NCBI GenBank assembly: GCA_017859745.1
Contig: JAFMML010000022.1
Span: forward strand, 1-48,054
Length of the DNA stretch: 48,054 bases
Reading direction: 5' to 3'
Source of the DNA: Planctomycetota bacterium
GTDB taxonomy: Bacteria; Planctomycetota; Phycisphaerae; Phycisphaerales; SM1A02
Shown: piece after piece, positions 2,978-38,461 of the stretch
Layout: the number at the start of each line of letters is the position of its first letter
Numbering within the stretch: position 1 is the first letter of the stretch
Notes under the pieces: generated by a model
Told to the model about the DNA's origin: nothing
What the model saw: the letters and a program-made list of their open reading frames with translations, nothing else
The model's database searches: none
Translations under genes and position numbers: made by a program

Positions 2978-4645
2978 TCAGGTCTGCAGGACCCCGGTTC
3001 GGAACGGCGCGTCCATCGGGCTGCCCGCGGCGAGGCGGAGGGCGAACGCCAGTTCGTCTCGGGTCTCGAGCGGATCGATCATGCGATCGATCCAGCCCCG
3101 CGCCGCGCCGTACAGCACGTCCTGCTGCTCGGAGTAGCTCGCGGTGATCGCCGCGAGGAGAGTCGCCCGCTCCTCCTCGTCGATCTTCTCTCCGCGGCGC
3201 TCGCGAGCGGCGAGGTCGATCTGCAGCAGGGTGCCGGCCGCCTGCGCCGCCCCCATCACCGCGCACTTCGCACCGGGCCATGCGAGGGTAAGGAATGGAT
3301 CGAACGCCCGGCCGCACATCGCGTAGTTGCCGGCTCCGTAGCTCGATCCGGTCATCAACACGACCTTCGGCACCACGCAGTTGCTCATGGCGTTCACCAT
3401 CTTCGCGCCGGCACGGATGATGCCGCCCTGCTCGCTGTCGCGACCGACCATGAAGCCGGTGGTGTCGTGGAGGAAGACCAGCGGGATCCGCTTCTGGTTG
3501 CAGTCCATGATGAAGCGGGCGCTCTTGTCGGCGCTGTCGTCGTAGATGACCCCGGGCATGTTCATCGACTTCGCGGGTCCCGCCTTGCCGCCCGGCATGG
3601 AGCGATCGGTGAGCTTCCGCTGGTTGGCGACGATGCCGCACGCCACGCCGCCGATGCGGGCGTACGCGCAGACGATGCTGCGGCCGAACTCGCCGCGGTA
3701 CTCGTCGAGGCTCTCCGCATCGACGACGCAGGCAAGCAGGTCCCGAACGTCGTACTGACTGCCGGGGCCGCTCTTGAAGACCTCCAGCAGATCGGCGGCG
3801 GGACGGGACGGCGCTGCGCCGGCTTCGGACGCCCAACGGCGAACGCCTTCGACCGCGGACATCTGCCGCCGCAGACGCAGGAGCGCCGCGGGATCGTCGG
3901 GCTCCTTGAAGTCGATCGTCCCCGAGATCTCCGCATGCATCGCGGCGCCGCCAAGCTCCTCGCTCGACACCTCCTGCCCGATCGCCGCCTTCACCAGCGC
4001 CGGGCCGGCGAGGTACAGGCCACTGCCCTCGGTCATGATCAGGGTGTCGCAGAGGACCGGCAGGTAGCCGCCGCCGGCGACGCAGTTGCCCATGATCGCG
4101 GCAAGTTGCGGAATGCCGGCCGCCGAGATCACCGCGTTGTTCCGGAAGATCCGACCGAAATCGTCGGTGTCGGGGAAGACGTCCTCCTGAAGAGGCAGGA
4201 AGACGCCGGCGCTGTCGACCAGATAGAGGAGCGGCACGCGAGCTCGCTCTGCGATCGTCTGGGCTCGGATGATCTTCTTGCAGGTCATCGGGAAGAACGC
4301 GCCCGCCTTCACGGTGGCGTCGTTGGCGACGACCATGCACGGCCTGTCTTCGACGATGCCGAGCGTGGTCAGGACGCCCGCCGCCGGTGCGCCCCCCTGC
4401 TCTCGATACATCCCGTAGGCCGAGAACAGACCGCACTCCAGACGCGGCGAGCCGGGATCGAACAGGCGATCGAGCCGCTCCCGAGCGGTCAGGCGGCCGT
4501 GACGGTGCTGACGGGCCACCCCCTTCTCGCCTCCGCCCTGTTCGAGACGGGAAACCGCTTCGAGCAGGTGCTCGCGGGCGGCGGCGAGGCCCTCGGGCGT
4601 CTCGGTGGGTGCTGGCGAGGCGGACTGGGGTGACGATTCGCTCAT
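2978..4645 (-). CDS. Acyl-CoA carboxylase carboxyltransferase (beta) subunit, methylcrotonyl-CoA type
   Basis: A 555-residue carboxyltransferase that moves the carboxyl group from carboxybiotin to an acyl-CoA. The two crotonase-fold halves are visible. The N half has VANDATVKAGAFFPMT, LVDSAGVFLPLQEDVFPD and MGNCVAGGGYLPVLCD. The C half has CNQKRIPLVFLHDTTGFMVG, SSYGAGNYAMCGRAFDP and WPGAKCAVMGAAQAAG. The AGNY-MCGRAF signature and the C-terminal IDPLETR...GVLQT favour methylcrotonyl- or geranoyl-CoA carboxylase over propionyl-CoA carboxylase. Length fits MccB (about 535). I place the start at 4645 (MSESS). The frame is open farther upstream but that stretch is arginine-rich and unlike the family. 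No biotin carboxylase or biotinylated subunit is adjacent. Confidence 0.9.
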   Translation of the reverse strand: MSESSPQSASPAPTETPEGLAAAREHLLEAVSRLEQGGGEKGVARQHRHGRLTARERLDRLFDPGSPRLECGLFSAYGMYREQGGAPAAGVLTTLGIVEDRPCMVVANDATVKAGAFFPMTCKKIIRAQTIAERARVPLLYLVDSAGVFLPLQEDVFPDTDDFGRIFRNNAVISAAGIPQLAAIMGNCVAGGGYLPVLCDTLIMTEGSGLYLAGPALVKAAIGQEVSSEELGGAAMHAEISGTIDFKEPDDPAALLRLRRQMSAVEGVRRWASEAGAAPSRPAADLLEVFKSGPGSQYDVRDLLACVVDAESLDEYRGEFGRSIVCAYARIGGVACGIVANQRKLTDRSMPGGKAGPAKSMNMPGVIYDDSADKSARFIMDCNQKRIPLVFLHDTTGFMVGRDSEQGGIIRAGAKMVNAMSNCVVPKVVLMTGSSYGAGNYAMCGRAFDPFLTLAWPGAKCAVMGAAQAAGTLLQIDLAARERRGEKIDEEERATLLAAITASYSEQQDVLYGAARGWIDRMIDPLETRDELAFALRLAAGSPMDAPFRTGVLQT

Positions 4646-4654
4646 GGGCGGTGG

Positions 4655-4660
4655 AGAATA
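4655..4660 (-). promoter_or_regulatory. Putative -10 element for the carboxyltransferase gene, start-proximal
   Basis: TATTCT, read leftward, ends 9 bases before the ATG at 4645, and no ribosome-binding sequence intervenes. This supports the 4645 start and suggests a leaderless or near-leaderless mRNA. No clear -35 box. Confidence 0.4.
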
Positions 4661-4833
4661 CCCGTCCGATCGACGCAGGATGGCGTCCGAACCCCGCCAA
4701 GACCACGCCAAGACCCCTCCAAGACCCCGCCGATGGGCTCTTCGGCGGAGCTCGGGTCGGCAGCGAGACCGGGCCGGTCGCGGCCGGGGGACGACCCCCT
4801 CCGCCGGTCGGTCCGAGTCGGGCAAGGCGAGGC

Positions 4834-4861
4834 TTCCCTCGGCCGGGGGATCTGCTATCTT
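4834..4861 (+). promoter_or_regulatory. Possible sigma-70-type promoter for rpsO
   Basis: TTCCCT and TATCTT are separated by 16 bases and lie about 78 bases upstream of the rpsO ATG. Spacing is acceptable and the -10 box matches 4 of 6, but the -35 box is poor. This is the best candidate in the interval. Confidence 0.3.
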
Positions 4862-4938
4862 CCGCGATTCGACACTAGGACCGAGTTTCCCGGCGCCGCC
4901 TGCGTGGCGACGCCCGTCAACGAGACGTTGGACGACGC

Positions 4939-5208
4939 ATGAGTTCAGAGACCATCGACAAGCAGCGGGTGATCGGCGAGAACCGTCGGCACGAGAGCGA
5001 TTCTGGTTCCCCAGAGGTCCAGATCGGCATCCTCACCGAGCGGATCAACCACCTGCAGAGCCACTTCAAGGCCAACCCCCACGATCACAGTTCCCGCCGC
5101 GGCCTCCTCCTGATGGTGGGTCGCCGGAACCGTCTTCTCAAGTATCTCGCGGCCTCCGATCGCGATCGGTATCTCGACACGATCCGACGCCTCGGCCTCC
5201 GCAAGTGA
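4939..5208 (+). CDS. rpsO: 30S ribosomal protein S15
   Basis: An 89-residue protein matching the normal length of S15, which binds the central domain of 16S rRNA and bridges to the large subunit. Recognised by GSPEVQIGILTERINHLQSHFK, HDHSSRRGLLLMVGRRNRLL and the end YLDTIRRLGLRK. The conserved His and Ser residues of the HDHSSRRGLL helix, which contact rRNA, are intact. It is followed by pnp with a 228-base interval, the common bacterial order rpsO-pnp. A strong hairpin begins 6 bases after the stop. Confidence 0.97.
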   Translation: MSSETIDKQRVIGENRRHESDSGSPEVQIGILTERINHLQSHFKANPHDHSSRRGLLLMVGRRNRLLKYLAASDRDRYLDTIRRLGLRK

Positions 5209-5213
5209 TCCAA

Positions 5214-5238
5214 CGCCGCGTCCCTGCGGGGCGCGGCG
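5214..5238 (+). promoter_or_regulatory. Stable hairpin between rpsO and pnp
   Basis: CGCCGCGTCCC pairs with GGGGCGCGGCG around a TGC triloop: 10 Watson-Crick pairs plus one T-G wobble. No T-run follows, so it is not a simple intrinsic terminator. By analogy with the E. coli rpsO-pnp interval it may be an RNase processing site or a 3'-end stabiliser of rpsO mRNA. Confidence 0.5.
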
Positions 5239-5403
5239 ACCTCCCCGCCGCCCTTGATGGCAGTGGGCACGGCACAGTGATCGCTTCGGAGACGTCGCCG
5301 GCCGCGATCGGCGAGCGGTTCAGCCTCCGCGACTCGCACTGTCCCATGCCTTCTGCCAACGGGGCGGCTCCCCGCCGCCGCGGCATCGCCGCGCGGCCTG
5401 ACC

Positions 5404-5420
5404 CGCCGGACCTTCCGGCG
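5404..5420 (+). promoter_or_regulatory. Hairpin just upstream of the pnp ribosome-binding site
   Basis: CGCCGGA pairs perfectly with TCCGGCG around a CCT loop. It ends 2 bases before the AGGAG at 5423-5427, so folding, unfolding or cleavage here could set ribosome access to pnp. A control role is inferred from position only. Confidence 0.4.
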
Positions 5421-5436
5421 TTAGGAGCGTGCCACC

Positions 5437-7581
5437 ATGGCCACCACCATCGTCGAACGTGAAGTGGGCGGACGCCTGCTTCGATTCGAGACCGGACGCG
5501 TCGCGAAGCTCGCGAGCGGATCGGTCATCGTCACCTACGGCGACACCGTCGTTCTCTCGACCGCGATGCGGGCGAACCCCCGCCCGGGCATCGACTTCTT
5601 CCCGCTGCAGTGCGACTACCGCGAGCGGATGTCCGCGGGCGGCCGGTTCCCCGGCGGCTTCCGGAAGCGCGAGGGACCCCCGAGCGAGAAGGAGATCCTC
5701 ACCATGCGGATGATGGATCGTCCGATCCGTCCGCTGTTTCCCGATGGATTCGTGGACGAGGTCCAGATCCAGGCATGGGTGATGAGCCACGACGGCCAGA
5801 ACGATGCCGACGTCGTCGCCTGCTGCGGTGCCAGCGCCGCGCTGTGCCTGACCGACGCGCCGTTCGAGGGTCCGATCGCGACCATCCGCGTGGGCCGAGT
5901 GTTCACCGAGAGCGGCCCGCAGTTCGTGATCAATCCGACCCAGGCCCAGATGGACTTCTCCGATCTCGATCTGGTCCTGTCCGGCCACGCCGATGGGATC
6001 AACATGATCGAGGTCGGCGCCGCCGAGATCGACGAGGCGACCATGCTCGAGGCCATCAAGTTCGGCTACGCGCACGGCATCACCCCGATCCTCGAGCTGA
6101 TCGGCGAGCTGCGTGAGAAGAGCGGCGCTCCCGCGGCCAATCCGGGCGCGTCGATGCTTCCTCCCGCGGAAGTCGCCGACGCCGTCAAGGCGAAGGTCTG
6201 GGATCGCCTCGTCGAGGCCCGCAAGATCCACGGCAAGCAGGATCGCAACGCCGCGGTGGGCGCCCTTCGCGACGAGATGCTCGCGGAGTGCTTCCCCGAT
6301 CCCGCCGACGGCTCCTACGCCGCCCACATGGCGGTGGAGACGGCGCGGAAGCAGGCCAAGGAGGCCTTCCGCACCCTCGAGAAGAAGGTCACCCACATGC
6401 TCGTGGCCGAGCAGGGCATCCGCCCCGACGGTCGCGGGCTCGCGGAGATCCGCCCCATCGACATCTCGGTGGGCATCTTCCCGCGGACCCACGGTTCGGC
6501 GTTCTTCCAGCGTGGCGAGACCCAGTCGCTGGTGACCTGCACTCTCGGAACCGGTCGCGACGAGCAGATCGTCGACGGACTCATGCCCGAGTACGCCAAG
6601 AAGTTCTACCTGCACTACAACTTCCCGCCGTTCTGCACCGGCGAGGCCGGACGCATCATGGGTCCCGGTCGTCGCGAGGTCGGCCACGGTGCCCTTGCGG
6701 AGCGCTCGCTGCTGGGCATCCTCCCCTCGGCCGAGGAGTTCCCCTACACCGTGCGGGTGGTCAGCGACATCACCGAGAGCAACGGCTCCTCCAGCATGGC
6801 GTCGGTCTGCGGCGGATGCATGGCGCTGATGGATGCAGGCGTGCCGATCAAGGCGGTCTGCGCGGGCATCTCCGTCGGCCGCTTCACCAGCGAGTCCGGC
6901 AAGGTCACCCACGTCACCGACATCCTCGGCGAAGAGGACTTCTTCGGCGAGATGGACTTCAAGGTGTCCGGCACCGTCGAGGGCATCACCGGCATCCAGC
7001 TCGATCTGAAGGCGCGGGGTCTCGACTTCGAGGAGGTCGAGAAGATCCTCGACCAGGCCCGCGTCGGCCGTCTGCAGATCATCGAGCAGATGAAGTCGGT
7101 GCTCGCGGAGCCGCGTCCGGACATCTCCGACTTCGCGCCGCGGATCATCATCGTGAAGATCGATCCAGACAAGATCGGCAAGCTGATCGGCCCCGGCGGC
7201 AAGACCATCCGAGGCATCCAGGAGCGCACCGGCGTCAACATCGACGTGGAGGAGGACGGCACCGTTCTCATCGCGTCGACCGACGGCGAGGCGGGCCGAC
7301 AGGCCAAGGCCGAGGTCGAGGCGCTCGGCGCCGAGATCAAGGTCGGTTCGGTCTACGAGGGCAAGGTCGTCGCGGTGAAGGAGTTCGGCGCGTTCGTCGA
7401 ACTCGTGCCCGGCACCGACGGCATGTGCCACATCTCCGAACTCGCCGAGGGGTTCGTCAAGAACGTCTCCGACGAGGTCAAGGTGGGCGACATCGTCAAG
7501 GTGAAGGTCATCAACGTCGACGAGAACGGCCGCATCAAGCTGTCGCGCAAGGCGCTGCTGGCCCCCGCGGCTGCCGATTGA
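5437..7581 (+). CDS. pnp: Polynucleotide phosphorylase
   Basis: A 714-residue 3'-to-5' phosphorolytic exoribonuclease, close to the 711 residues of E. coli PNPase. Two RNase PH domains are present: the first with DFFPLQCDYRERMSAGGRFP and RPIRPLFPDGF, the second with RPDGRGLAEIRPI, GSAFFQRGETQSLVTCTLG and the catalytic-site region GEEDFFGEMDFKVSGT. A KH domain follows near residue 575 (KIGKLIGPGGKTIRGIQE) and an S1 domain near residue 638 (VYEGKVVAVKEFGAFVEL). AGGAG at 5423-5427 supports the ATG at 5437. The gene lies in the rpsO-pnp pair with a structured leader and ends at a strong terminator. Confidence 0.98.
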   Translation: MATTIVEREVGGRLLRFETGRVAKLASGSVIVTYGDTVVLSTAMRANPRPGIDFFPLQCDYRERMSAGGRFPGGFRKREGPPSEKEILTMRMMDRPIRPLFPDGFVDEVQIQAWVMSHDGQNDADVVACCGASAALCLTDAPFEGPIATIRVGRVFTESGPQFVINPTQAQMDFSDLDLVLSGHADGINMIEVGAAEIDEATMLEAIKFGYAHGITPILELIGELREKSGAPAANPGASMLPPAEVADAVKAKVWDRLVEARKIHGKQDRNAAVGALRDEMLAECFPDPADGSYAAHMAVETARKQAKEAFRTLEKKVTHMLVAEQGIRPDGRGLAEIRPIDISVGIFPRTHGSAFFQRGETQSLVTCTLGTGRDEQIVDGLMPEYAKKFYLHYNFPPFCTGEAGRIMGPGRREVGHGALAERSLLGILPSAEEFPYTVRVVSDITESNGSSSMASVCGGCMALMDAGVPIKAVCAGISVGRFTSESGKVTHVTDILGEEDFFGEMDFKVSGTVEGITGIQLDLKARGLDFEEVEKILDQARVGRLQIIEQMKSVLAEPRPDISDFAPRIIIVKIDPDKIGKLIGPGGKTIRGIQERTGVNIDVEEDGTVLIASTDGEAGRQAKAEVEALGAEIKVGSVYEGKVVAVKEFGAFVELVPGTDGMCHISELAEGFVKNVSDEVKVGDIVKVKVINVDENGRIKLSRKALLAPAAAD

Positions 7582-24210: not shown

Positions 24211-26145
24211 GTGCCCTCCACGACCTCGCGAACTTCCCGCCCTCGGCCCAGCTCCGGCGATCCGGATCGGACGCTGGCGGCGCGTTCCGCATCCGGCGGC
24301 GGCTGGGAGTGCCTGCTGATCGAGTGCGCCTCGACGGCCGATCCCGGCTCGCGGCGCCTGCTGGACCGGCGGTCGTGCCGATCGGACGAGGAACTCGCCT
24401 CCTGGGTCGAGGAGAGCCGGGCGGGCCGATGCCTGATGATGCTGCCATCGGCGGCCACGATCTGTCGGGTCTTCCGATTCCCCGGCATGCCCGGGGATCA
24501 GATCGATCAGGCCTTGCGGCTTCAGGCGGAAAGTCACCTGCTGGGTGGAATCGCCTCGCACCGCACCACGATCGTCCGGGTGCCTCAGCCTGAGAGTGGC
24601 GAAGCCGTCGGACTGCTGCTGGCATGGCCCGAGCAGGCAACGACTCGCATGCCTTCCGGTCGAGCTCGCCAATGGGAGATGGTTCCCGAGATCGCAGCCC
24701 TGCTCGAAGCATGGCGAACCGCCTCGGTCAAGACGCCACTGGTCTGGGCCGATCCCGCAGATGGGTCGATCGGCGTGGTTGCCGGCGACGCCGGGACCCC
24801 GATGCTCCGGGCGACCTGCGAGGCGGCGGAGGGCGACGAACCGTGGGATCAGGTCGTCCGCCGCGTCGTTGGTGAAACGGTGCTCGCGGCAGGAGGCAGC
24901 GCCGAGGTCGCCAAGAGCACCGTCGAACGGGCCGACGCCGGCATGATCGAGCAGGACTCGGTGCGTGCCAGTCGTCCCGGACTCTTCAGCGACCTCGATG
25001 GCCTTGACGGCCGCGACTCGGTCGGCGCCCTGCTCGACGCCGCGATTCGCACGGCTCGCGGCCCCCTCGCCGCCGCCGCGACCCTGACCGCCGAACCGCC
25101 CTCCATCCGTCGAACCGGAGTGTCGGCGACGTTCGAGCGTGTTGCGATCGCCCTGACGACGCCCCGGACGGCGATCCGAGTCGCGATCGTCGCCGTCATC
25201 GTGGCGCTGGCGATGCCGCTTGCAGGCGCCGGCCTGCGAACCGCCATCCTTCGCGCGAAGCTTCCCGACCCGGATGCCTTCGAGGCGGCGATGAAGGCGT
25301 CTGAACAGCAGCTCGCGGTCTACCGCGAACTGGAGGCGCAGGCCTGGCCCATGATGAAGATCCTCGGGGACCTCTCCAACTGCATGCCCGAGGCGATCGA
25401 GGTCGAATCGCTCACGATGGGCCATGGCGAGCCGGTCGTCGTTCGAGGCTTCGCCAAGCCGGATGGCGACATCACCGGTGCCGATGCGGTGCTCGAGATG
25501 GAGCGACGACTGCGGGCGACCCGCGTCTTCGACAAGATCACCAAGAGCTGGGATCCCCCGGACGCCCGCGGGATCTACGAGTTCTCGATGTCGGCCGAGG
25601 TGGCCCGCCCCACGACACGGGCCCGGGTCGACGAGAACGACGACTTCGCCGTCAACACCCTTGCCATTCGCCGCTACGGCCCTCTGGTCGCGGGAGGCGT
25701 CACCTCCGCCGGCGATGCATCCGAGGCCTCCCCGTCGATCCCCGACTCGACGGGAGACGAGGCAAGCACCGCATCATCGGACAACACCGCACGAGGCCGA
25801 ACCGATACGGAGGCGGCGACATCGCCCCCCGCTTCGGCCGATTCGGCGACAGCCTCCTCGTCTGGCGGCAGCACCCCCTCGCGTGGCATCGGTCGGCGCG
25901 GGTCCTCCGCATCCGGCGATGCCCCTCCCGGTGGTCGGGGCGTGGACATCCCGAGTTCCTCCACACCCAGCGAGACCGTCGACTACAGCGATGCGGAAGT
26001 CGCCGCGATGAGCAAGGCCGAAGCGCAGTCGGCCCTTGGGCGCGTCGCCCGGGCCAGACAGTCGGCGTCGCTCGACGACGCGGCCAAGGAGCGCCTGCGA
26101 GCGCTCTTCGACAAGTTGCTGCAGCGGGTGAGGGAGGCCGAATGA
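24211..26145 (+). CDS. GspL-equivalent: PilM/PilN-like fusion with extra C-terminal module
   Basis: A 644-residue protein starting at GTG, 30 bases after gspK. Residues about 30-240 look like a cytoplasmic actin-like PilM/GspL domain (LLIECASTADP, GRCLMMLPSAATICRVFRFP, QIDQALRLQAESHL). One transmembrane helix lies at about 320-345 (RVAIVAVIVALAMPLAGAG). A periplasmic PilN-like domain follows (VYRELEAQAWPMMKILGDLS, VRGFAKPDGDITGADAVLEM). A Ser/Thr/Pro-rich linker (about 480-590) leads to a charged helical module at 592-644 that is repeated at the end of the GspC-like protein. It would link GspE to the periplasmic frame. Assignment rests on layout and position; direct similarity to GspL is weak. 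Confidence 0.75.
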   Translation: MPSTTSRTSRPRPSSGDPDRTLAARSASGGGWECLLIECASTADPGSRRLLDRRSCRSDEELASWVEESRAGRCLMMLPSAATICRVFRFPGMPGDQIDQALRLQAESHLLGGIASHRTTIVRVPQPESGEAVGLLLAWPEQATTRMPSGRARQWEMVPEIAALLEAWRTASVKTPLVWADPADGSIGVVAGDAGTPMLRATCEAAEGDEPWDQVVRRVVGETVLAAGGSAEVAKSTVERADAGMIEQDSVRASRPGLFSDLDGLDGRDSVGALLDAAIRTARGPLAAAATLTAEPPSIRRTGVSATFERVAIALTTPRTAIRVAIVAVIVALAMPLAGAGLRTAILRAKLPDPDAFEAAMKASEQQLAVYRELEAQAWPMMKILGDLSNCMPEAIEVESLTMGHGEPVVVRGFAKPDGDITGADAVLEMERRLRATRVFDKITKSWDPPDARGIYEFSMSAEVARPTTRARVDENDDFAVNTLAIRRYGPLVAGGVTSAGDASEASPSIPDSTGDEASTASSDNTARGRTDTEAATSPPASADSATASSSGGSTPSRGIGRRGSSASGDAPPGGRGVDIPSSSTPSETVDYSDAEVAAMSKAEAQSALGRVARARQSASLDDAAKERLRALFDKLLQRVREAE

Positions 26146-26792
26146 GCGGTATGCCGATCACGCGCGACGACGGAATGGATCGCAACGGCGACGGCGGCAC
26201 CTCGCTGAAGGACCGCTGGTCCGAGTTGCCGCTGCGATGGAAGCGCCTGCTGATCGCCGTCGGAATCGTGCTCGGCTTCGTGCTGTACGTGGATTGGGTC
26301 TGGCCGATCGCCGAGCGGTGGAACGCCGAGAGCGATCGCATCGAGGCGGTGCTCGACCGTGCCGAGGGCAATCGTCTGGAACTGCCGAACTCGCTTGCCG
26401 CCACGGTCGAGAGTCTCGGTCCGATTCGGATTCCCAGCACCGAGGGCGAAGGTTCGATCGCGCTTGCCGAGACCGTCAACGCGGCGATCCGCAACCATCC
26501 CGTCAGCAACTTCTCGTTCGACGCCCGTGCCGGCGCCAGACTTCCTCCCGCCGCCCTGCGCGAAATCGCCTCGGGCGCGGGGGATCGGGTCGAGCGCGTG
26601 GTCGGCGAGATCGGCTTCACCTCGACCCCCGAGGAGGCCGCCGACATCATTGCCGAACTCGAGGCGAGTCCAGACCTGGAGTCGATCAGCCGCCTCCGCA
26701 TCACCCGCAGTCAGACCCTCGATCGGCGGGTCGACGTGAAGATGACCGTCGAGGCGTGGGTCCTCGGATCCCGCGGCAGGAGACCCCGCTGA
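26142..26792 (+). CDS. GspM/PilO-like inner-membrane frame protein
   Basis: A 216-residue bitopic protein. A hydrophilic N-terminus of about 30 residues precedes one transmembrane helix (LLIAVGIVLGFVLYVDWVW). Then come a helical stretch (AERWNAESDRIEAVLDRAEG) and a compact alpha/beta domain (EIGFTSTPEEAADIIAELEA, VDVKMTVEAWVLG). This is the PilO/GspM layout. The ATGA overlap with the preceding gene and TGATG overlap with the next show tight coupling. It would pair with the GspL-like protein in the periplasm. Confidence 0.75.
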   Translation: MSGMPITRDDGMDRNGDGGTSLKDRWSELPLRWKRLLIAVGIVLGFVLYVDWVWPIAERWNAESDRIEAVLDRAEGNRLELPNSLAATVESLGPIRIPSTEGEGSIALAETVNAAIRNHPVSNFSFDARAGARLPPAALREIASGAGDRVERVVGEIGFTSTPEEAADIIAELEASPDLESISRLRITRSQTLDRRVDVKMTVEAWVLGSRGRRPR

Positions 26793-27880
26793 TGGCCGGT
26801 CGATTCGAACTGCCCTCGGGCGCCCGCTGGTCTGGATCCGCCGTGGCCGCGGTCGTGGCCGGCGGAATCGCCCTGGTGGTCGCCCTCGCAGCACTCGGCA
26901 CCGTGATCGGCACCGTCTTTCGGAGCGGCGCGGAGAGCGTGCAGCCGGACCTCGTCGAACCACTGCTGGTCCGGCACGAGGAACTCGTCGACGTCAGCCG
27001 TCGTCGCTTCGACGGCCGGTCGGCGTTCTTCCTTCCCAAGCCGCCGCCACGCCCGAAGCCGCCACCGCCACCGGTTCGAGACACTCCTCCGGCACCACCG
27101 CCGCCGCCGCCTCGCGATCCGGGACCACCGCCGCCGCCCGCCAGCTACGGCGGGCCGAGACCTCGAAGCGTGATGGGCGACGTCGTGTTCTTCGAGAGCA
27201 CCTCGCCGGACCGGCTTCGGGTCGGCGAGGAGTCCGGTGGCGTCACCGTCATCGCCACGACGCCCCCCTGGAAGGTCCGCCTCGGATGGTCCGGAGGGGA
27301 GTACGACGTCGATCTCTGGGGCGACCGGGTCGAGGGCGTCTTCTCGTCGAACCCCTTCGGCAGCGGCGGAAACTCGTCGTCGCTGTCGGGCGGCAGCAGT
27401 CTCAATCCGAATGTCCCTCCCGCGTCTCGTCGCACCGACGATGGACCGGGAGGACCGGGGTTCGGTCTTCCCCGAGGCGGAGCGTCGGGCGGAGGCGGCG
27501 CAGCGCAAGGTGGTCGCGGCTCCGGCGGATCGGATTCGGCCGGAAGTTCGCCCGGACAGGTCTCCGACTCGGCCGCGCGAAGCGAGGGCCCCAATGCATC
27601 CGCACTTCTCGCCGGCGGAACCGCCGGGGACGACGAGAGCGGCTTCTCCCCCGACAACCCCGCCGAAGTCGGCAGCGTGGAGGGGCGGGAGTTCGTTCCC
27701 ATCTCCGAACTGCCGTCGGCACTCTCTCCTTCCGACATCGACGCCATGAGCCGCGACGAGGCTCGAGCCGCCCTGAGCCGTGTGGCCCGGGCCCGCGGCC
27801 GCAACATCGATCCCCACAGCGCCGAACGCCTCCGCGAGGAGTTCGAGTTGCTGCTTCAACGACTGCGCCGTGGCGACTGA
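26792..27880 (+). CDS. GspC-like protein with proline-rich linker and shared C-terminal module
   Basis: A 362-residue bitopic protein. After a short N-terminus there is one transmembrane helix (AAVVAGGIALVVALAALGTV), then a proline-rich rod (KPPPRPKPPPPPVRDTPPAP and more, residues about 88-125). A small beta domain follows (VMGDVVFFESTSPDRLRVGE, GVTVIATTPPWKVRLGWS) where GspC carries its homology region, which binds the secretin. A Gly/Ser-rich linker leads to a charged helical module at 311-362, homologous to the end of the GspL-like protein. No PDZ domain is seen. Position between the GspM-like gene and gspD supports the GspC role; similarity is otherwise low. The start shares one base with the previous stop. 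Confidence 0.72.
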   Translation: MAGRFELPSGARWSGSAVAAVVAGGIALVVALAALGTVIGTVFRSGAESVQPDLVEPLLVRHEELVDVSRRRFDGRSAFFLPKPPPRPKPPPPPVRDTPPAPPPPPPRDPGPPPPPASYGGPRPRSVMGDVVFFESTSPDRLRVGEESGGVTVIATTPPWKVRLGWSGGEYDVDLWGDRVEGVFSSNPFGSGGNSSSLSGGSSLNPNVPPASRRTDDGPGGPGFGLPRGGASGGGGAAQGGRGSGGSDSAGSSPGQVSDSAARSEGPNASALLAGGTAGDDESGFSPDNPAEVGSVEGREFVPISELPSALSPSDIDAMSRDEARAALSRVARARGRNIDPHSAERLREEFELLLQRLRRGD

Positions 27881-27988: not shown

Positions 27989-30604
27989 GTGCTCGTGACC
28001 CGATTCGAGATCCGCACCGCGTCCCTCGCCCTGCTCGCCTGCCTCGTCGTCCCCGGCGGCGTTCGCCTCGCGGCGGCGCAGGATGAGACCGCACCACCCG
28101 TCGAGGATCGGCCCCTCGTCCTCGAAGGAGGCGAAGCCGTCGACGACCTTCCCGACGAAGCCGCCCCCGTCGCCGAGATCCTCGACCGCCGAAACCGGCG
28201 ACAACCCGCCGACGACTCGCCGGTGGTGCTGGGCTTCAAGAAGGAGAAGCTCGAGTCGGTCATCCCGTTCATCGTCGAGTGGACCGGCAAGGTCGTGATG
28301 TTGCGCCTGACGCAGGTCGCGCCGATCGAGATCACCCTCGTCAACGACCGGCCGATCAGCAAGGACCGGGCCCTGGACCTGATCTTCCAGGCCTTCCGCA
28401 TGAACGGCATCGGCGTCGTCGAGACCGAGGACGTGATCATGATCGAGACGCTGACCGACATGGAGAAGATCCAGCCGGCGGTGATCCTCGGCCCCGAGGT
28501 CGACGTGATGAGGATGACCGAGGATGGCAACATCGTCATCAAGGTGTTCCGTCTCGAGAACACCGCGGCCGGCGAGGTCTTCCAGCGCCTCGAAGGCTCG
28601 ATCCCGACCTACGCGACCCTGACCGTCGACGGCAACTCCAATCAGCTCATCCTCGAGGGCGACGTCGGTCTCGCCAAGCGGGTCCAGCAGCTGATCTCGA
28701 TCCTCGACGTGGATCCATGGGTCGACGTCAAGACCGAGACCTTCCGCCTTGCGTACGCGGACGCCCAGACCCTTGCCGACAACATCCGCGAACTGTTCGA
28801 GCCGACCTCGTCGACGGGAAGCCGCGGCGGATCTTCCAGTCGCACCCCGGCTCGAGGGCGTGGCGGGCAGCAGCAGAACACCGCGGAGATCCCCCAGGTC
28901 GGCACCAGCGACCAGTTGGTGGTCACGGTGCTGCCGCAGAACAATGCGATCACCGTCCGGGCCGAGCCCGACGTCATGGCCAGCATCAAGCGCCTCATCG
29001 TCGAGGCCTGGGACATCCCGCCGACCCGCGAAGGCCAGATCTTCCGCCTCTACGACCTCAAGTACACCGATCCGATCAAGGTGAAGGACGTGCTGTCGGC
29101 GCTGCTCGAGAGCGGCAGCGTCACCCGGCGCCCGGCCTCCGCGGGCGGGCGGGCCCCGGGCGGCGGTTCGGGTGGCGGCGCCGACGTGGCGGTCGCCAAC
29201 ATCTTCCGGATCGAGGCGTATCCCGACTCGAACCGCCTCGTGGTGATCAGCCGCACGCCGGACAACTTCCTCTGGCTCGACCAGTTGATCGATCAGATCG
29301 ACAAGCCGTTGTCGGTCGGCCTTCCGGTGTCGGTGGAACTCAAGCACGCCAACGCGGTCGACGTCGCCGAGATCCTCAACGCCCTGCTGCAGCAGGCCGG
29401 CGGCGGAGCGACGCTCGAGGCCCCGGCCGAGGGTCTCACCGGCATCGACTTCGCCAGCGCAGGCGGTGGCGAGGGCGGCGCGTCCGGCGCCACCGACGAG
29501 GGCAGTCGACAGGAGATCCGATTCCCCTGGCAGCAGGCCCGCGCCGGCACCGACGCCACCGAGGTGAGCGCCATCGTCGGCAAGAGCCGCGTGGTGCCCA
29601 ACGCCGGCCAGAACAGTCTGCTCGTGCTCGCGACCCCCGAGATCCAGGACGCGCTCCTGGAGATCATCGGGGATCTCGACCGCCCCGGGCGCCAGGTGCT
29701 GATCACCGCGGTGCTCGCCGAAGTCGAACTCGGCGACGACTTCGCGTTCGGCGTCCAGTTCGGTCCGACCGGCTCCATCAATCCCCGCAATCCCAACAAT
29801 GCCGTGGTCGTCAACTCGCCGGGATCGGGACCGATGTTCTCCGGCTCGTTGGATCCGGTCTTCCCGGGATCGCTGACCAGTTCGACGCTCAACTTCGGCG
29901 TCGATGCGACGGTGCTGCTGCAGGCCCTCAGCGAGAAGACCAACGTCCGCATCCTCCAGCAACCGCGGGTCTTCACCACCGACAACAAGGAGGCGAAGTT
30001 CTTCGACGGTCAGGACGTGCCCTTCCAGACCTCGACCAGTTCCGGCGGAACCACCGGCGGCACCGTGGTCAGCGACTTCGAGCAGATCGCCGTCGGGATC
30101 GGCCTCAACGTCCGGCCCCGCATCACCAACGAGCGCAACGTCGCCATGGAGATCGCGGTGCTGCTCTCCAACGTCAACACCCAGCCGGGGTTCACCTCCG
30201 TCGGCAACAACCCCGTCATCAACCGGCGTCAGACCAACACCTCGGTCACGATCAAGAACGGCCAGACCATCGTCATCTCGGGCATCCGCCGTGAAGGCAC
30301 CACCAAGGTCAAGTCGGGATTCCCCATCCTGGGCGACATTCCGGTGCTCGACTGGGTCTTCTCCTACACCGACGAATCCGAGGCCGTGAAGGAGCTCGTG
30401 ATCTTCATCACCCCACTGGTGGTGAGCAATCCCGACGAGAACGACACCAACTTCAACGAGGCCGACCGACGTCGCCTCGACCAGCTCAGCCGGCCGCTCG
30501 ACGACATCACCCGCAAGCTGATCATCGAGAGTCGCGTGGTGCCGACCGACGAGGAGGAGAAGGCGGACGAACCGCCGTTGATGGATGCCCCCTCGGAACC
30601 GTGA
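27989..30604 (+). CDS. gspD: Outer-membrane secretin GspD
   Basis: An 871-residue secretin. The signal peptide (ASLALLACLVVPGGVRLAAA) is followed by an N0 domain (VTLVNDRPISK region, IEITLVNDRPISKDRALDL) and N1-N3 repeats (FRLENTAAGEVFQRLEGSIP, FRLAYADAQTLADNIRELF, LKYTDPIKVKDVLSALLES) with Gly/Ser-rich insertions. The C-terminal secretin core has LLQALSEKTNVRILQQPRVF, VGIGLNVRPRITNERNVAME, IKNGQTIVISGIRREGTTKV and GFPILGDIPVLDWVFSYTDE. The frame starts at GTG 27989, with another GTG at 27995 as an alternative. It lies 108 bases after the GspC-like gene and overlaps the following lipoprotein gene by 20 bases. The gene order, with C and D last, differs from the classical C-D-E-F order. Confidence 0.95.
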   Translation: MLVTRFEIRTASLALLACLVVPGGVRLAAAQDETAPPVEDRPLVLEGGEAVDDLPDEAAPVAEILDRRNRRQPADDSPVVLGFKKEKLESVIPFIVEWTGKVVMLRLTQVAPIEITLVNDRPISKDRALDLIFQAFRMNGIGVVETEDVIMIETLTDMEKIQPAVILGPEVDVMRMTEDGNIVIKVFRLENTAAGEVFQRLEGSIPTYATLTVDGNSNQLILEGDVGLAKRVQQLISILDVDPWVDVKTETFRLAYADAQTLADNIRELFEPTSSTGSRGGSSSRTPARGRGGQQQNTAEIPQVGTSDQLVVTVLPQNNAITVRAEPDVMASIKRLIVEAWDIPPTREGQIFRLYDLKYTDPIKVKDVLSALLESGSVTRRPASAGGRAPGGGSGGGADVAVANIFRIEAYPDSNRLVVISRTPDNFLWLDQLIDQIDKPLSVGLPVSVELKHANAVDVAEILNALLQQAGGGATLEAPAEGLTGIDFASAGGGEGGASGATDEGSRQEIRFPWQQARAGTDATEVSAIVGKSRVVPNAGQNSLLVLATPEIQDALLEIIGDLDRPGRQVLITAVLAEVELGDDFAFGVQFGPTGSINPRNPNNAVVVNSPGSGPMFSGSLDPVFPGSLTSSTLNFGVDATVLLQALSEKTNVRILQQPRVFTTDNKEAKFFDGQDVPFQTSTSSGGTTGGTVVSDFEQIAVGIGLNVRPRITNERNVAMEIAVLLSNVNTQPGFTSVGNNPVINRRQTNTSVTIKNGQTIVISGIRREGTTKVKSGFPILGDIPVLDWVFSYTDESEAVKELVIFITPLVVSNPDENDTNFNEADRRRLDQLSRPLDDITRKLIIESRVVPTDEEEKADEPPLMDAPSEP

Positions 30605-32031: not shown

Positions 32032-32439
32032 TCAGTCCTCTTCGAACTCGTCGTCCTCATCGTCGTCCTCGAGGTCGTCCTCGTCTTCGTCCTCGTCGTC
32101 CTCGAACTCGTCCTCGAATCCATCCTCGTCGTCCTCGTCCTCGTCATCCTCCTCGTCCTCGTCCTCGTCCTCGTCATCCTCCTCGTCATCCTCGAGTTCG
32201 TCGTCGTCATCGTCATCGTCGTCGTCGTCGTCATCTTCGTCTTCCTCGTCGTCTTCCTCGTCGTCGAAGAAGGGGAAGTCCTCCTCGTCGTCCCAGTCGT
32301 CGCCGGCGACGACCACTGCGAATCCAGGCGATGACCGCTCGAGGGCGGCGAACGATGGCGCCGTCGCGACGGCGGCGTCGGCAAGGGTGGGCTCGGCACG
32401 TCGGAGCATGGATGAGATGGTTGCGTCGACGGTCGACAT
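32032..32439 (-). CDS. Extremely acidic small protein (Asp/Glu-rich tail)
   Basis: A 135-residue protein. Residues 1-46 are ordinary (MSTVDATISSMLRRAEPTLA...). In residues 47-135, 78 of 89 positions are Asp or Glu, with a run of 12 Asp, and the few others are mostly Phe, Leu, Trp and Gly. There is no signal peptide. AGGAG about 8 bases upstream and a good upstream promoter support a real gene starting at 32439. The coding DNA is a near-simple GAC/GAG/GAT repeat. I know no family. It could act as a DNA mimic, a polycation or calcium binder, or a disordered acidic chaperone; none of these is shown. Confidence 0.7.
   Translation of the reverse strand: MSTVDATISSMLRRAEPTLADAAVATAPSFAALERSSPGFAVVVAGDDWDDEEDFPFFDDEEDDEEDEDDDDDDDDDDDDELEDDEEDDEDEDEDEEDDEDEDDEDGFEDEFEDDEDEDEDDLEDDDEDDEFEED
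32042..32300. repeat. Low-complexity CTC/GTC-type repeat tract
   Basis: The plus strand is almost wholly built of CTCGTC, GTCGTC and TCATCC units encoding the acidic tail on the minus strand. A 24-base block beginning GTCCTCGTCCTCGTCATCC appears twice, 30 bases apart, which suggests growth by replication slippage. Confidence 0.8.
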
Positions 32440-32490
32440 GGGCGGCTCCTGTTTGGGTCGAGCCTTTCTATCGGCTCCCCGATCGCGAGA

Positions 32491-32517
32491 GGTATAGCAG
32501 GACTCCAACCTCGTCAA
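32491..32517 (-). promoter_or_regulatory. Promoter of the acidic protein gene
   Basis: Read leftward: TTGACG (5 of 6 matches to TTGACA), a 15-base spacer, then TATACC preceded by TGC (extended -10). It lies between the stop of the 1366-residue gene and the acidic gene, leaving a leader of about 45 bases with AGGAG. The spacer is short but the boxes are good. Confidence 0.55.
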
Positions 32518-37402: not shown

Positions 37403-38461
37403 ATGCAACTCCACGACATTCTTCGCCGCGCTCACGAACACGAGGCCTCGGACATCCACATCGTGCCGGGCCATCCGCCCATGATGCGGGTCCACACGGT
37501 CCTCGTGCCCATGGACGACTTCCCCACGCTGACCAGCGAGGCGATTCGTCAGACCATCGAGCAGATCACCACGCCTTCGCAGCAGCAGGTGTTCGATCGC
37601 GAGAGCGACCTGGACTTCTCGCACGAGGTGCCTGGCCTGCAGCGCTACCGAATCAACGCGCATCTTCAGCGGAGCGGCCCGGCGCTGGCGCTGCGTTCGA
37701 TCCGGACGAGCGTGCCGCCGATGGAGAGCCTCGGACTTCCCGAGATCATCGACATGCTCGTGGACCTGCCGCGCGGACTGGTGCTCGTGACCGGCGACAC
37801 CGGCTCCGGCAAGTCCACGACGCTCGCAGCCATGATCGACGCGATGAACCGGCGTCACCGGAAGCACATCGTGACGCTCGAGGACCCGGTGGAGTACACG
37901 TTCACCTCCGACCTCTGCCTCATCGAGCAGCGTGAACTCGGCGCCGACATGCCGACGTTCGCCTCCGGCATGCGTCACGCCCTCCGTCAGGACCCGGACG
38001 TCATCCTCGTCGGCGAGATGCGCGATCTCGAGACCGCGGCGCTCGCCATCTCGGCGGCGGAGACCGGACACCTGGTGCTTTCCACGCTGCACACCGCCAG
38101 CGCCGCGCAGACCGTCGAACGGATCATCGACATGTATCCCGCCGGACAGCAGGCCCAGATCCGGGCGATGCTGTCCAACACCCTGGAGGCGGTGGTGTCG
38201 CAGACGCTGTTCAGTCGCGCCGATCGTCCGGGCATGGTCCCGGCGGTCGAGGTGCTGCTGTGCACGCCTGCGGTTCGAAACCTGATCCGCGAGGACCGGA
38301 CCTTCGAGATCCCCAACGTCATCGAGACCAGCCGGCAGCGCGGCATGAACAGTCTCGACTCCGCGATCTCCGAGCTCTACTTCAACGGCTGCATCAGCCG
38401 CGAGGACGCTCTCGAGAAGGCCACCAACCGCGACAAGCTCGAGCGTCAGCTCGCCGCCTGA
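37403..38461 (+). CDS. pilT: Type IV pilus retraction ATPase PilT
   Basis: A 352-residue hexameric ATPase that depolymerises pili. N-terminal domain: HEASDIHIVPGHPPMMRVH. Core: Walker A GDTGSGKSTT near residue 131, the Asp box VTLEDPVEYTF, Walker B LRQDPDVILVGEMRDLET and the His box HLVLSTLHTASA. The C-terminal AVRNLIRE at about 290 corresponds to the AIRNLIRE motif that marks retraction ATPases. The zinc CxxC pairs of assembly ATPases are absent. Length matches PilT (about 345). It is followed 25 bases later by a PilC-type platform gene. No PilB accompanies it. Confidence 0.95.
   Translation: MQLHDILRRAHEHEASDIHIVPGHPPMMRVHTVLVPMDDFPTLTSEAIRQTIEQITTPSQQQVFDRESDLDFSHEVPGLQRYRINAHLQRSGPALALRSIRTSVPPMESLGLPEIIDMLVDLPRGLVLVTGDTGSGKSTTLAAMIDAMNRRHRKHIVTLEDPVEYTFTSDLCLIEQRELGADMPTFASGMRHALRQDPDVILVGEMRDLETAALAISAAETGHLVLSTLHTASAAQTVERIIDMYPAGQQAQIRAMLSNTLEAVVSQTLFSRADRPGMVPAVEVLLCTPAVRNLIREDRTFEIPNVIETSRQRGMNSLDSAISELYFNGCISREDALEKATNRDKLERQLAA

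Follow-up and report, generated by a model that had tools for sequence, protein, structure and literature searches.

The window analysed here, a stretch of 48,054 nucleotides from a Planctomycetota bacterium that forms one contig (JAFMML010000022.1) of a 147-contig, 3.24-Mb genome, carries a plus-strand type II secretion system (T2SS) operon, and by sequence comparison its GspL-like and GspC-like proteins end in one homologous module, predicted to be helical. The gspL gene (24211..26145, plus strand; 644 amino acids, GTG start) encodes a PilM/GspL-like cytoplasmic domain, a transmembrane helix, a predicted ferredoxin-like periplasmic domain, a disordered linker and the tail module (residues 592-644; 25984..26142). 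The gspC-like gene (26792..27880, plus strand; 362 amino acids) encodes an N-terminal transmembrane segment, a Pro-rich stretch, a four-strand domain at the homology region (HR) position, a linker and its own copy of the module (residues 311-362; 27722..27877). A first-pass annotation of the window had pointed out the two tails, with about 24 identities between them, and had called the rest of the two proteins unrelated. Its coordinates proved exact, 25 identities were counted by eye over the same 52-53 residue stretch, and once the tails are removed the best GspL-GspC alignment falls in the low-complexity, Gly/Ser/Ala/Pro-rich linker and nowhere else.

The statistical evidence for homology is as follows. 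BLASTP of the full-length GspL and GspC proteins aligned 65 positions with 29 identities (E=2e-9). The tail pair reaches a local-alignment score of 107, whereas 20,000 shuffles average 27.7 and never exceed 63. The first-pass annotation had named the lack of a significant profile match between the tails as a refutation; the separate profiles of 29 GspL and 22 GspC tails do match each other with a probability of 99.6 and 41% identity (E=1.9e-24, a pairwise and not a database E-value). To sample relatives, the gspL region was taken from 60 genomes of the window family, which makes 61 loci with the window. A hidden Markov model (HMM) built from the GspL ends only found 27 open reading frames (ORFs) at the GspC position at E<=1e-5 among the 6,030 six-frame ORFs of these loci; the GspC of locus L094 was marginal (E=0.25) and the GspC end of L070 was found in a shifted frame (E=6e-4). 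Beyond the GspL ends, which were its training set, and the GspC tails, this HMM found nothing else among the 6,030 ORFs, and GspM of the window is without a tail by the same search. In L070 (genome G122; ORF 4273-4831, minus strand) the GspC tail is out of frame with the rest of gspC, which points to a frameshift in the genome or in the assembly. Both tails are Ala/Arg-rich amphipathic helices, but a chance or compositional likeness can practically be dismissed, given that no shuffle reached the observed score, that the profile match and the specificity over the ORFs are as described, and that a DNA-level copy of the GspL tail exists in a relative (see below).

AlphaFold2 models give each tail a short helix followed by helices of 15 and 20 residues: 594-599, 602-616 and 623-642 in GspL (predicted local distance difference test score, pLDDT, 75-91) and 313-318, 321-335 and 341-360 in GspC (pLDDT 78-89 over residues 311-360). 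We infer that the two longer helices would pack as a hairpin. In line with the first-pass annotation, both modules follow linkers on the periplasmic side, here predicted to be disordered; in GspL the low-complexity linker covers residues 467-588 (25609..25974; pLDDT <50). Hydrophobic residues of the GspL tail lie at 592, 597, 600, 605, 609, 612 and 615 and, in the last helix, at 629, 633, 636, 637 and 640, and this positional pattern is common to GspL, GspC and the other carriers described below and is kept across families. Conservation is strongest at the hydrophobic positions, and few polar ones are near-invariant. Pfam searches with the 29 GspL and 22 GspC tails returned scattered weak matches only (best E 0.002), with no family in more than three members, and a known Pfam domain was rejected since no consistent family emerged. 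A profile search of the PDB gave no full-length match: the best (E=2e-6) was a designed repeat protein whose score adds up several short fragments, the best of them at E=8.7, and the next was NblA (E=0.012) over 21 residues. The module was also absent from the titles and abstract openings among the matches listed in literature searches on planctomycete or Phycisphaerales T2SSs, GspL and GspC, GspL extensions and new C-terminal domains, a body of text in which subscription papers mostly do not figure.

The tail is old on GspL. A GspL match is present in 143 out of 151 genomes of the window family, and with a general profile the tail was detected on 57 out of 61 family GspL proteins at E<=0.01; among the other four, L096 has only N at this place. 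Of the 294 genomes in a sample of the phylum, 11 matched, and the six convincing matches are all in the window's order; the five outside it (E 0.002-0.009) are marginal and were treated as noise. Order-wide, 173 of 301 genomes match, and these belong to the window family (f1) and to families f2, f93 and f94, with one marginal match in f4; the listed f3 genomes and the remaining listed f4 genomes gave no match, and 108 further non-matching genomes were not listed. Outside f1, 55 of the 59 matching genomes match again with a broader profile, mostly through a single copy, borne by a GspL-sized ORF. Seven f2 loci were read, and GspL was confirmed by blastp in five of them and by gene position in two. 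We concluded that the tail is ancestral on GspL within part of the order, and that it is essentially absent from the rest of the 294-genome phylum sample.

The GspC copy has a different distribution. It is present in 27 of the 54 family loci that reach gspD and missing from the other 27. In a GspD tree of 62 rows, built by a quick method without bootstrap, all GspC tails fall in one 30-row clade with a Shimodaira-Hasegawa-like approximate likelihood ratio (SH-aLRT) support of 100. The GspC-tail label changes 4 times on this tree, against a mean of 20.5 when the labels are shuffled, and one of the 4 changes stems from L148, which was mislabelled as outgroup although it belongs to the family and its GspC has the tail. 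Within the clade the tail is carried by 28 out of 30 rows (27 plus L148), being degenerate in L094 and lost in L046; the 25 family loci outside the clade have no GspC tail. L046 (genome G139; 4556-5485, minus strand) offers a natural deletion: its GspC is tail-less and ends in the linker. We concluded that the GspC copy was gained once and then retained, and the retention in 28 out of 30 rows suggests selection on the GspC tail. For the first-pass annotation this means that the homologous helical module on both proteins stands, and its confinement to the GspL/GspC pair does not: the module is ancestral on GspL alone, sits on GspC in one clade and occurs on other carriers in relatives. The refuting condition that the first-pass annotation had set, relatives in which one of the two proteins alone bears the module, holds for half the loci (27 of 54), which refutes an obligatory GspL-GspC pair and not the module itself.

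The further carriers first surfaced with a profile of GspL tails only. A subsequent search of 86 family genomes used a profile of 39 diverse copies, some extra carriers included, and 84 of the 86 genomes match it. At least one further carrier, neither GspL nor GspC, was found at E<=1e-4 in 18 of these genomes, and at least one carrier was read from each. By this 39-copy profile, extra carriers are missing from the window genome and from most genomes of the family; in the window genome the GspL and GspC tails are the only two clear copies, and the next match has E=0.36. L161 (a partial module, E 9.5e-4) is outside the 18-genome count. Matches in L150, L151, L160, L162 and L163 were treated as noise; that of L162 (E 7.5e-5) passes 1e-4, but its genome, G076, is counted anyway. 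By Pfam, the carriers include DUF1579, AhpC-TSA, Pkinase-TPR, beta-lactamase, vWF_A/YfbK_C, WD40 and GspD proteins. The DUF1579 carriers of two genera (L117, L119, L121, L122, L154) have two module copies in tandem, and the redoxin/AhpC-TSA carriers have one or two. The module is also found on a beta-lactamase-fold hydrolase, on three Ser/Thr kinases that also contain TPRs and come from a single genus, on a vWF_A/YfbK_C protein plus a second protein resembling it, and on a WD40 protein from a genome outside the 86. Small carriers like the secretin N-terminal domain (STN-like) were judged by eye, with one weak Pfam match, and tiny lipoproteins, also judged by eye, contain little beyond a lipobox and the module. 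In genus g35 such lipoproteins (L146, L155, L156, L158 and L159, the last cut by a contig end) are built from a lipobox, the short segment CGY.PAPKPPGYDS and a single module, and are candidate membrane anchors for it. Finally, the GspD of an f2 genome (G494) carries a second clear copy at its C-terminus (L140; ORF 3264-5894, minus strand), the only clear case in the 59 matching genomes outside f1; we regard it as the second time that the module moved onto the axis formed by GspC and GspD.

In nearly all readable carriers the module is preceded by a hydrophobic stretch compatible with a signal peptide or a single transmembrane segment (Kyte-Doolittle hydropathy, no signal-peptide predictor), and in the three kinases a transmembrane segment lies between the kinase domain and the TPRs. 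The exceptions are L118, without such a stretch, the masked L123, and L137 and L159, which start at contig ends. Three carriers (L135, L138 and L152) have the module at the N-terminus or inside the protein and not at the C-terminus. Judged by these features, nearly all carriers would place the module outside the inner membrane.

When the extra modules were ranked against the 57 GspL tails, a GspL tail of the same genus came first for 20 out of 37, in 7 out of 10 genera; for L138 and L139 the margin is just one score point, and the set of 37 includes a chance stretch (E 0.53). For the DUF1579 modules the own-genus GspL tail ranks 12-48, and for the lipoprotein modules 2, 7 and 11, versus 1 for L146; by these rankings the DUF1579 and most lipoprotein modules look like old separate lines. 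The GspC tails are not close to their own GspL in this way: the GspL tail of the own genome averages rank 16.5 of 28. One copying event is preserved at the DNA level. In genome G007, a recent copy of 263 bp from the 3' end of gspL, 93.5% identical, forms the end of an exported STN-like gene that is otherwise unrelated (L065:6238-5976 vs L125:3268-3530). The match spans the linker, the tail, the stop codon and the opening bases of gspM, where the copy has CTG in place of the ATG start. The match extends past the gspL stop into the gspM start, and the copying direction was therefore from gspL to the other gene; gspL has been the donor at least once. In a DNA-level test of nine such pairs, G007 and three more (71-76% identity) matched and five did not. 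The example shows with unusual clarity how a component of a machine became a mobile domain, and a DNA scar records the direction of copying.

Our favoured reading, to which we give a rough probability of 0.4, is that the tail is an autonomous helical docking module of about 55 residues at the periplasmic end of GspL, most likely self-pairing. Autonomy should follow from the fact that it functions on GspL alone in many genomes and is transferable to other proteins. Two tail hairpins would pair tail to tail into a four-helix bundle, and a self-complementary tail of this kind would connect GspL subunits within the platform; GspL is described elsewhere as forming dimers and tetramers (PMC6233222). 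Through the GspC copy, the GspC arm that reaches the secretin would gain a second connection, a flexible one, to the GspL/M platform. PulC is reported to span the periplasm at about two copies per PulL (PMC6882859). A tail on other exported proteins would recruit them to this site or keep them in contact with each other, and the tandem modules of the DUF1579 proteins could form an intramolecular four-helix bundle.

Several observations weigh against self-pairing. Many genomes have the GspL copy only, and the basic function therefore cannot need a second tailed protein. The GspL and GspC tails show no co-divergence: their identity is 31.3% within a genome vs 31.0% across genomes (28 pairs), and a partial Mantel test of the two tails given GspD found no correlation (r = -0.016, p = 0.57), so the tails give no hint of an interface that co-evolves. 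On the same figures, gene conversion or co-evolution holding the two tails alike is unsupported. SHOCT, a comparable mobile tail, is reported not to have oligomerised its carrier when tested (PMC3581485). Moreover, all copies would also fit a common tail-less partner, which explains the data almost as well.

Such a common receptor is possible, if somewhat unlikely in our estimate. Every copy would bind the same tail-less envelope component, for example peptidoglycan, an outer-membrane protein or a soluble scaffold, and the tail would anchor T2SS parts and other proteins at one site without mutual contact. GspL as the sole carrier in many genomes and the lack of GspL-GspC co-divergence both fit this proposal, as does the range of carriers (inner-membrane, outer-membrane, lipoprotein and soluble proteins), which is that of a general anchor. 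There is also a precedent in Dickeya, where the T2SS protein OutB is described as attaching the secretin to peptidoglycan (PMC9239104). It speaks against a receptor that the conservation is mostly hydrophobic with few near-invariant polar positions, and that no partner gene turned up, no search for a co-occurring gene having been made.

It appears quite unlikely that the module is no more than a small folded helical end that protects or stabilises disordered C-termini without a specific partner and spreads as a harmless, helpful addition. The module does follow a disordered linker on GspL and GspC, and its copies are diverse in sequence. However, it is N-terminal or internal in three carriers, its hydrophobic pattern is kept across families, and both the GspC tail in 28 of 30 rows and the tandem copies exceed the role of an end-cap. 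A narrow model in which the tails form an operon-specific GspL-GspC heterodimer we consider improbable. The two tails share a compartment and an operon, the GspC tail was gained a single time and long retained, and GspC-GspL-GspM (CLM) complexes are reported to exist in other T2SSs (PMC11981180); but 25 of the 54 loci fall outside the GspC-tail clade and are without the tail on GspC, unrelated proteins carry the module as well, and the tails do not co-diverge.

Returning to the self-pairing docking module, we also considered that the GspL tail might act as a self-complementary address tag, by which the GspL/GspC assembly would attract any exported protein that gains a copy, so that the protein could be secreted, displayed at the surface or regulated. 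We regard this as clearly unlikely; if true, cargo and partner genes would have received the 3' end of gspL as a modular recruitment code. How T2SSs recognize cargo, and how the platform is linked to the secretin arm, are not known to be settled. The natural pairs with and without the tail across one family offer a direct test of a platform tail as a docking code.

The identity of the two proteins apart from their tails was examined separately. Neither the GspL-like nor the GspC-like window protein has a Pfam or NCBIfam match at E<=1. The AlphaFold2 models were built from three sequences and have a mean pLDDT of 51 (GspC) and 54 (GspL), and in the poor GspC model only the tail was trusted. In Foldseek searches with the three-sequence model the GspL core matched PilM (5eq6, E 5.1e-5) and the cytoplasmic domain of GspL (4pht, E 2.6e-4; 1yf5, E 5.0e-4), with low TM-scores of 0.23-0.37 on the target, and the core is supported as PilM/GspL-like by these model-based matches. 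The transmembrane segment lies in a modelled helix of hydrophobic sequence and low local pLDDT (residues 318-350; 25162..25260), and residues 396-464 are predicted as strands plus a helix, with Foldseek matches to PilO only at E 0.065-0.15. The position of gspL between gspK and gspM fits GspL. In the GspC-like protein, four strands of low pLDDT (residues 142-175) occupy the position of the HR, the GspC domain that binds N0 of the secretin; this segment gave no Pfam T2SSC match and no match by Foldseek or PDB profile search, and 1 out of 16 orthologue segments matches T2SSB (GspB-type) weakly (E 0.13). The protein is taken to be GspC from the position of its gene, its topology and this weak match in one orthologue. 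Pfam found no PDZ domain in it, the C-terminus being the tail module instead; some known GspC proteins are without PDZ, so the missing domain does not exclude GspC. The operon spans gspE (17182) to gspD (30604). Between gspL and gspC, gspM (26142..26792, plus strand; weak Pfam T2SSM match, E 0.063) shares 4 bases with gspL and 1 base with gspC, and the secretin gene gspD (27989..30604, plus strand), used as the tree marker, encodes no tail in the window genome. Downstream of the operon, a minus-strand ORF at 32032-32517 contains an extreme Asp/Glu-rich run (Ser-, Arg- or Thr-rich in other frames), and a second T2SSE-family ATPase domain within the window, 1 of 11 matches in the genome, lies at 37409-38218.

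Compared with known systems, the GspL-like protein resembles GspL (EpsL/PulL/XcpY) and PilM/PilN of type IV pili in the PilM/GspL-like fold of its cytoplasmic part, and the predicted ferredoxin-like domain on the periplasmic side may be a second common feature. Known GspL proteins are not known to extend beyond the ferredoxin-like domain, whereas this one continues with a linker of about 120 residues and the tail module, and we know of no such tail in GspL. GspC (PulC/OutC) is likewise a protein linking platform and secretin, described with a C-terminal periplasmic module after the HR position (PMC6882859); here that module is predicted to be helical and homologous to the GspL tail, and is not a PDZ domain. 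GspB/OutB is described as tethering the secretin to the inner membrane and peptidoglycan via a C-terminal extension (PMC9239104). The tail differs in having no sequence relation to GspB in Pfam. The closest analogue in kind would be SHOCT, which we take to be Pfam PF09851 and which was not among the Pfam matches at E<=1 for the 29 GspL and 22 GspC tails. SHOCT, too, is described as a short helical module, mostly C-terminal and mobile across unrelated proteins, and its authors also weighed oligomerisation (PMC3581485). In contrast, the module found in this window is confined almost entirely to part of one planctomycete order, is predicted to be mostly extracytoplasmic and is centred on GspL.

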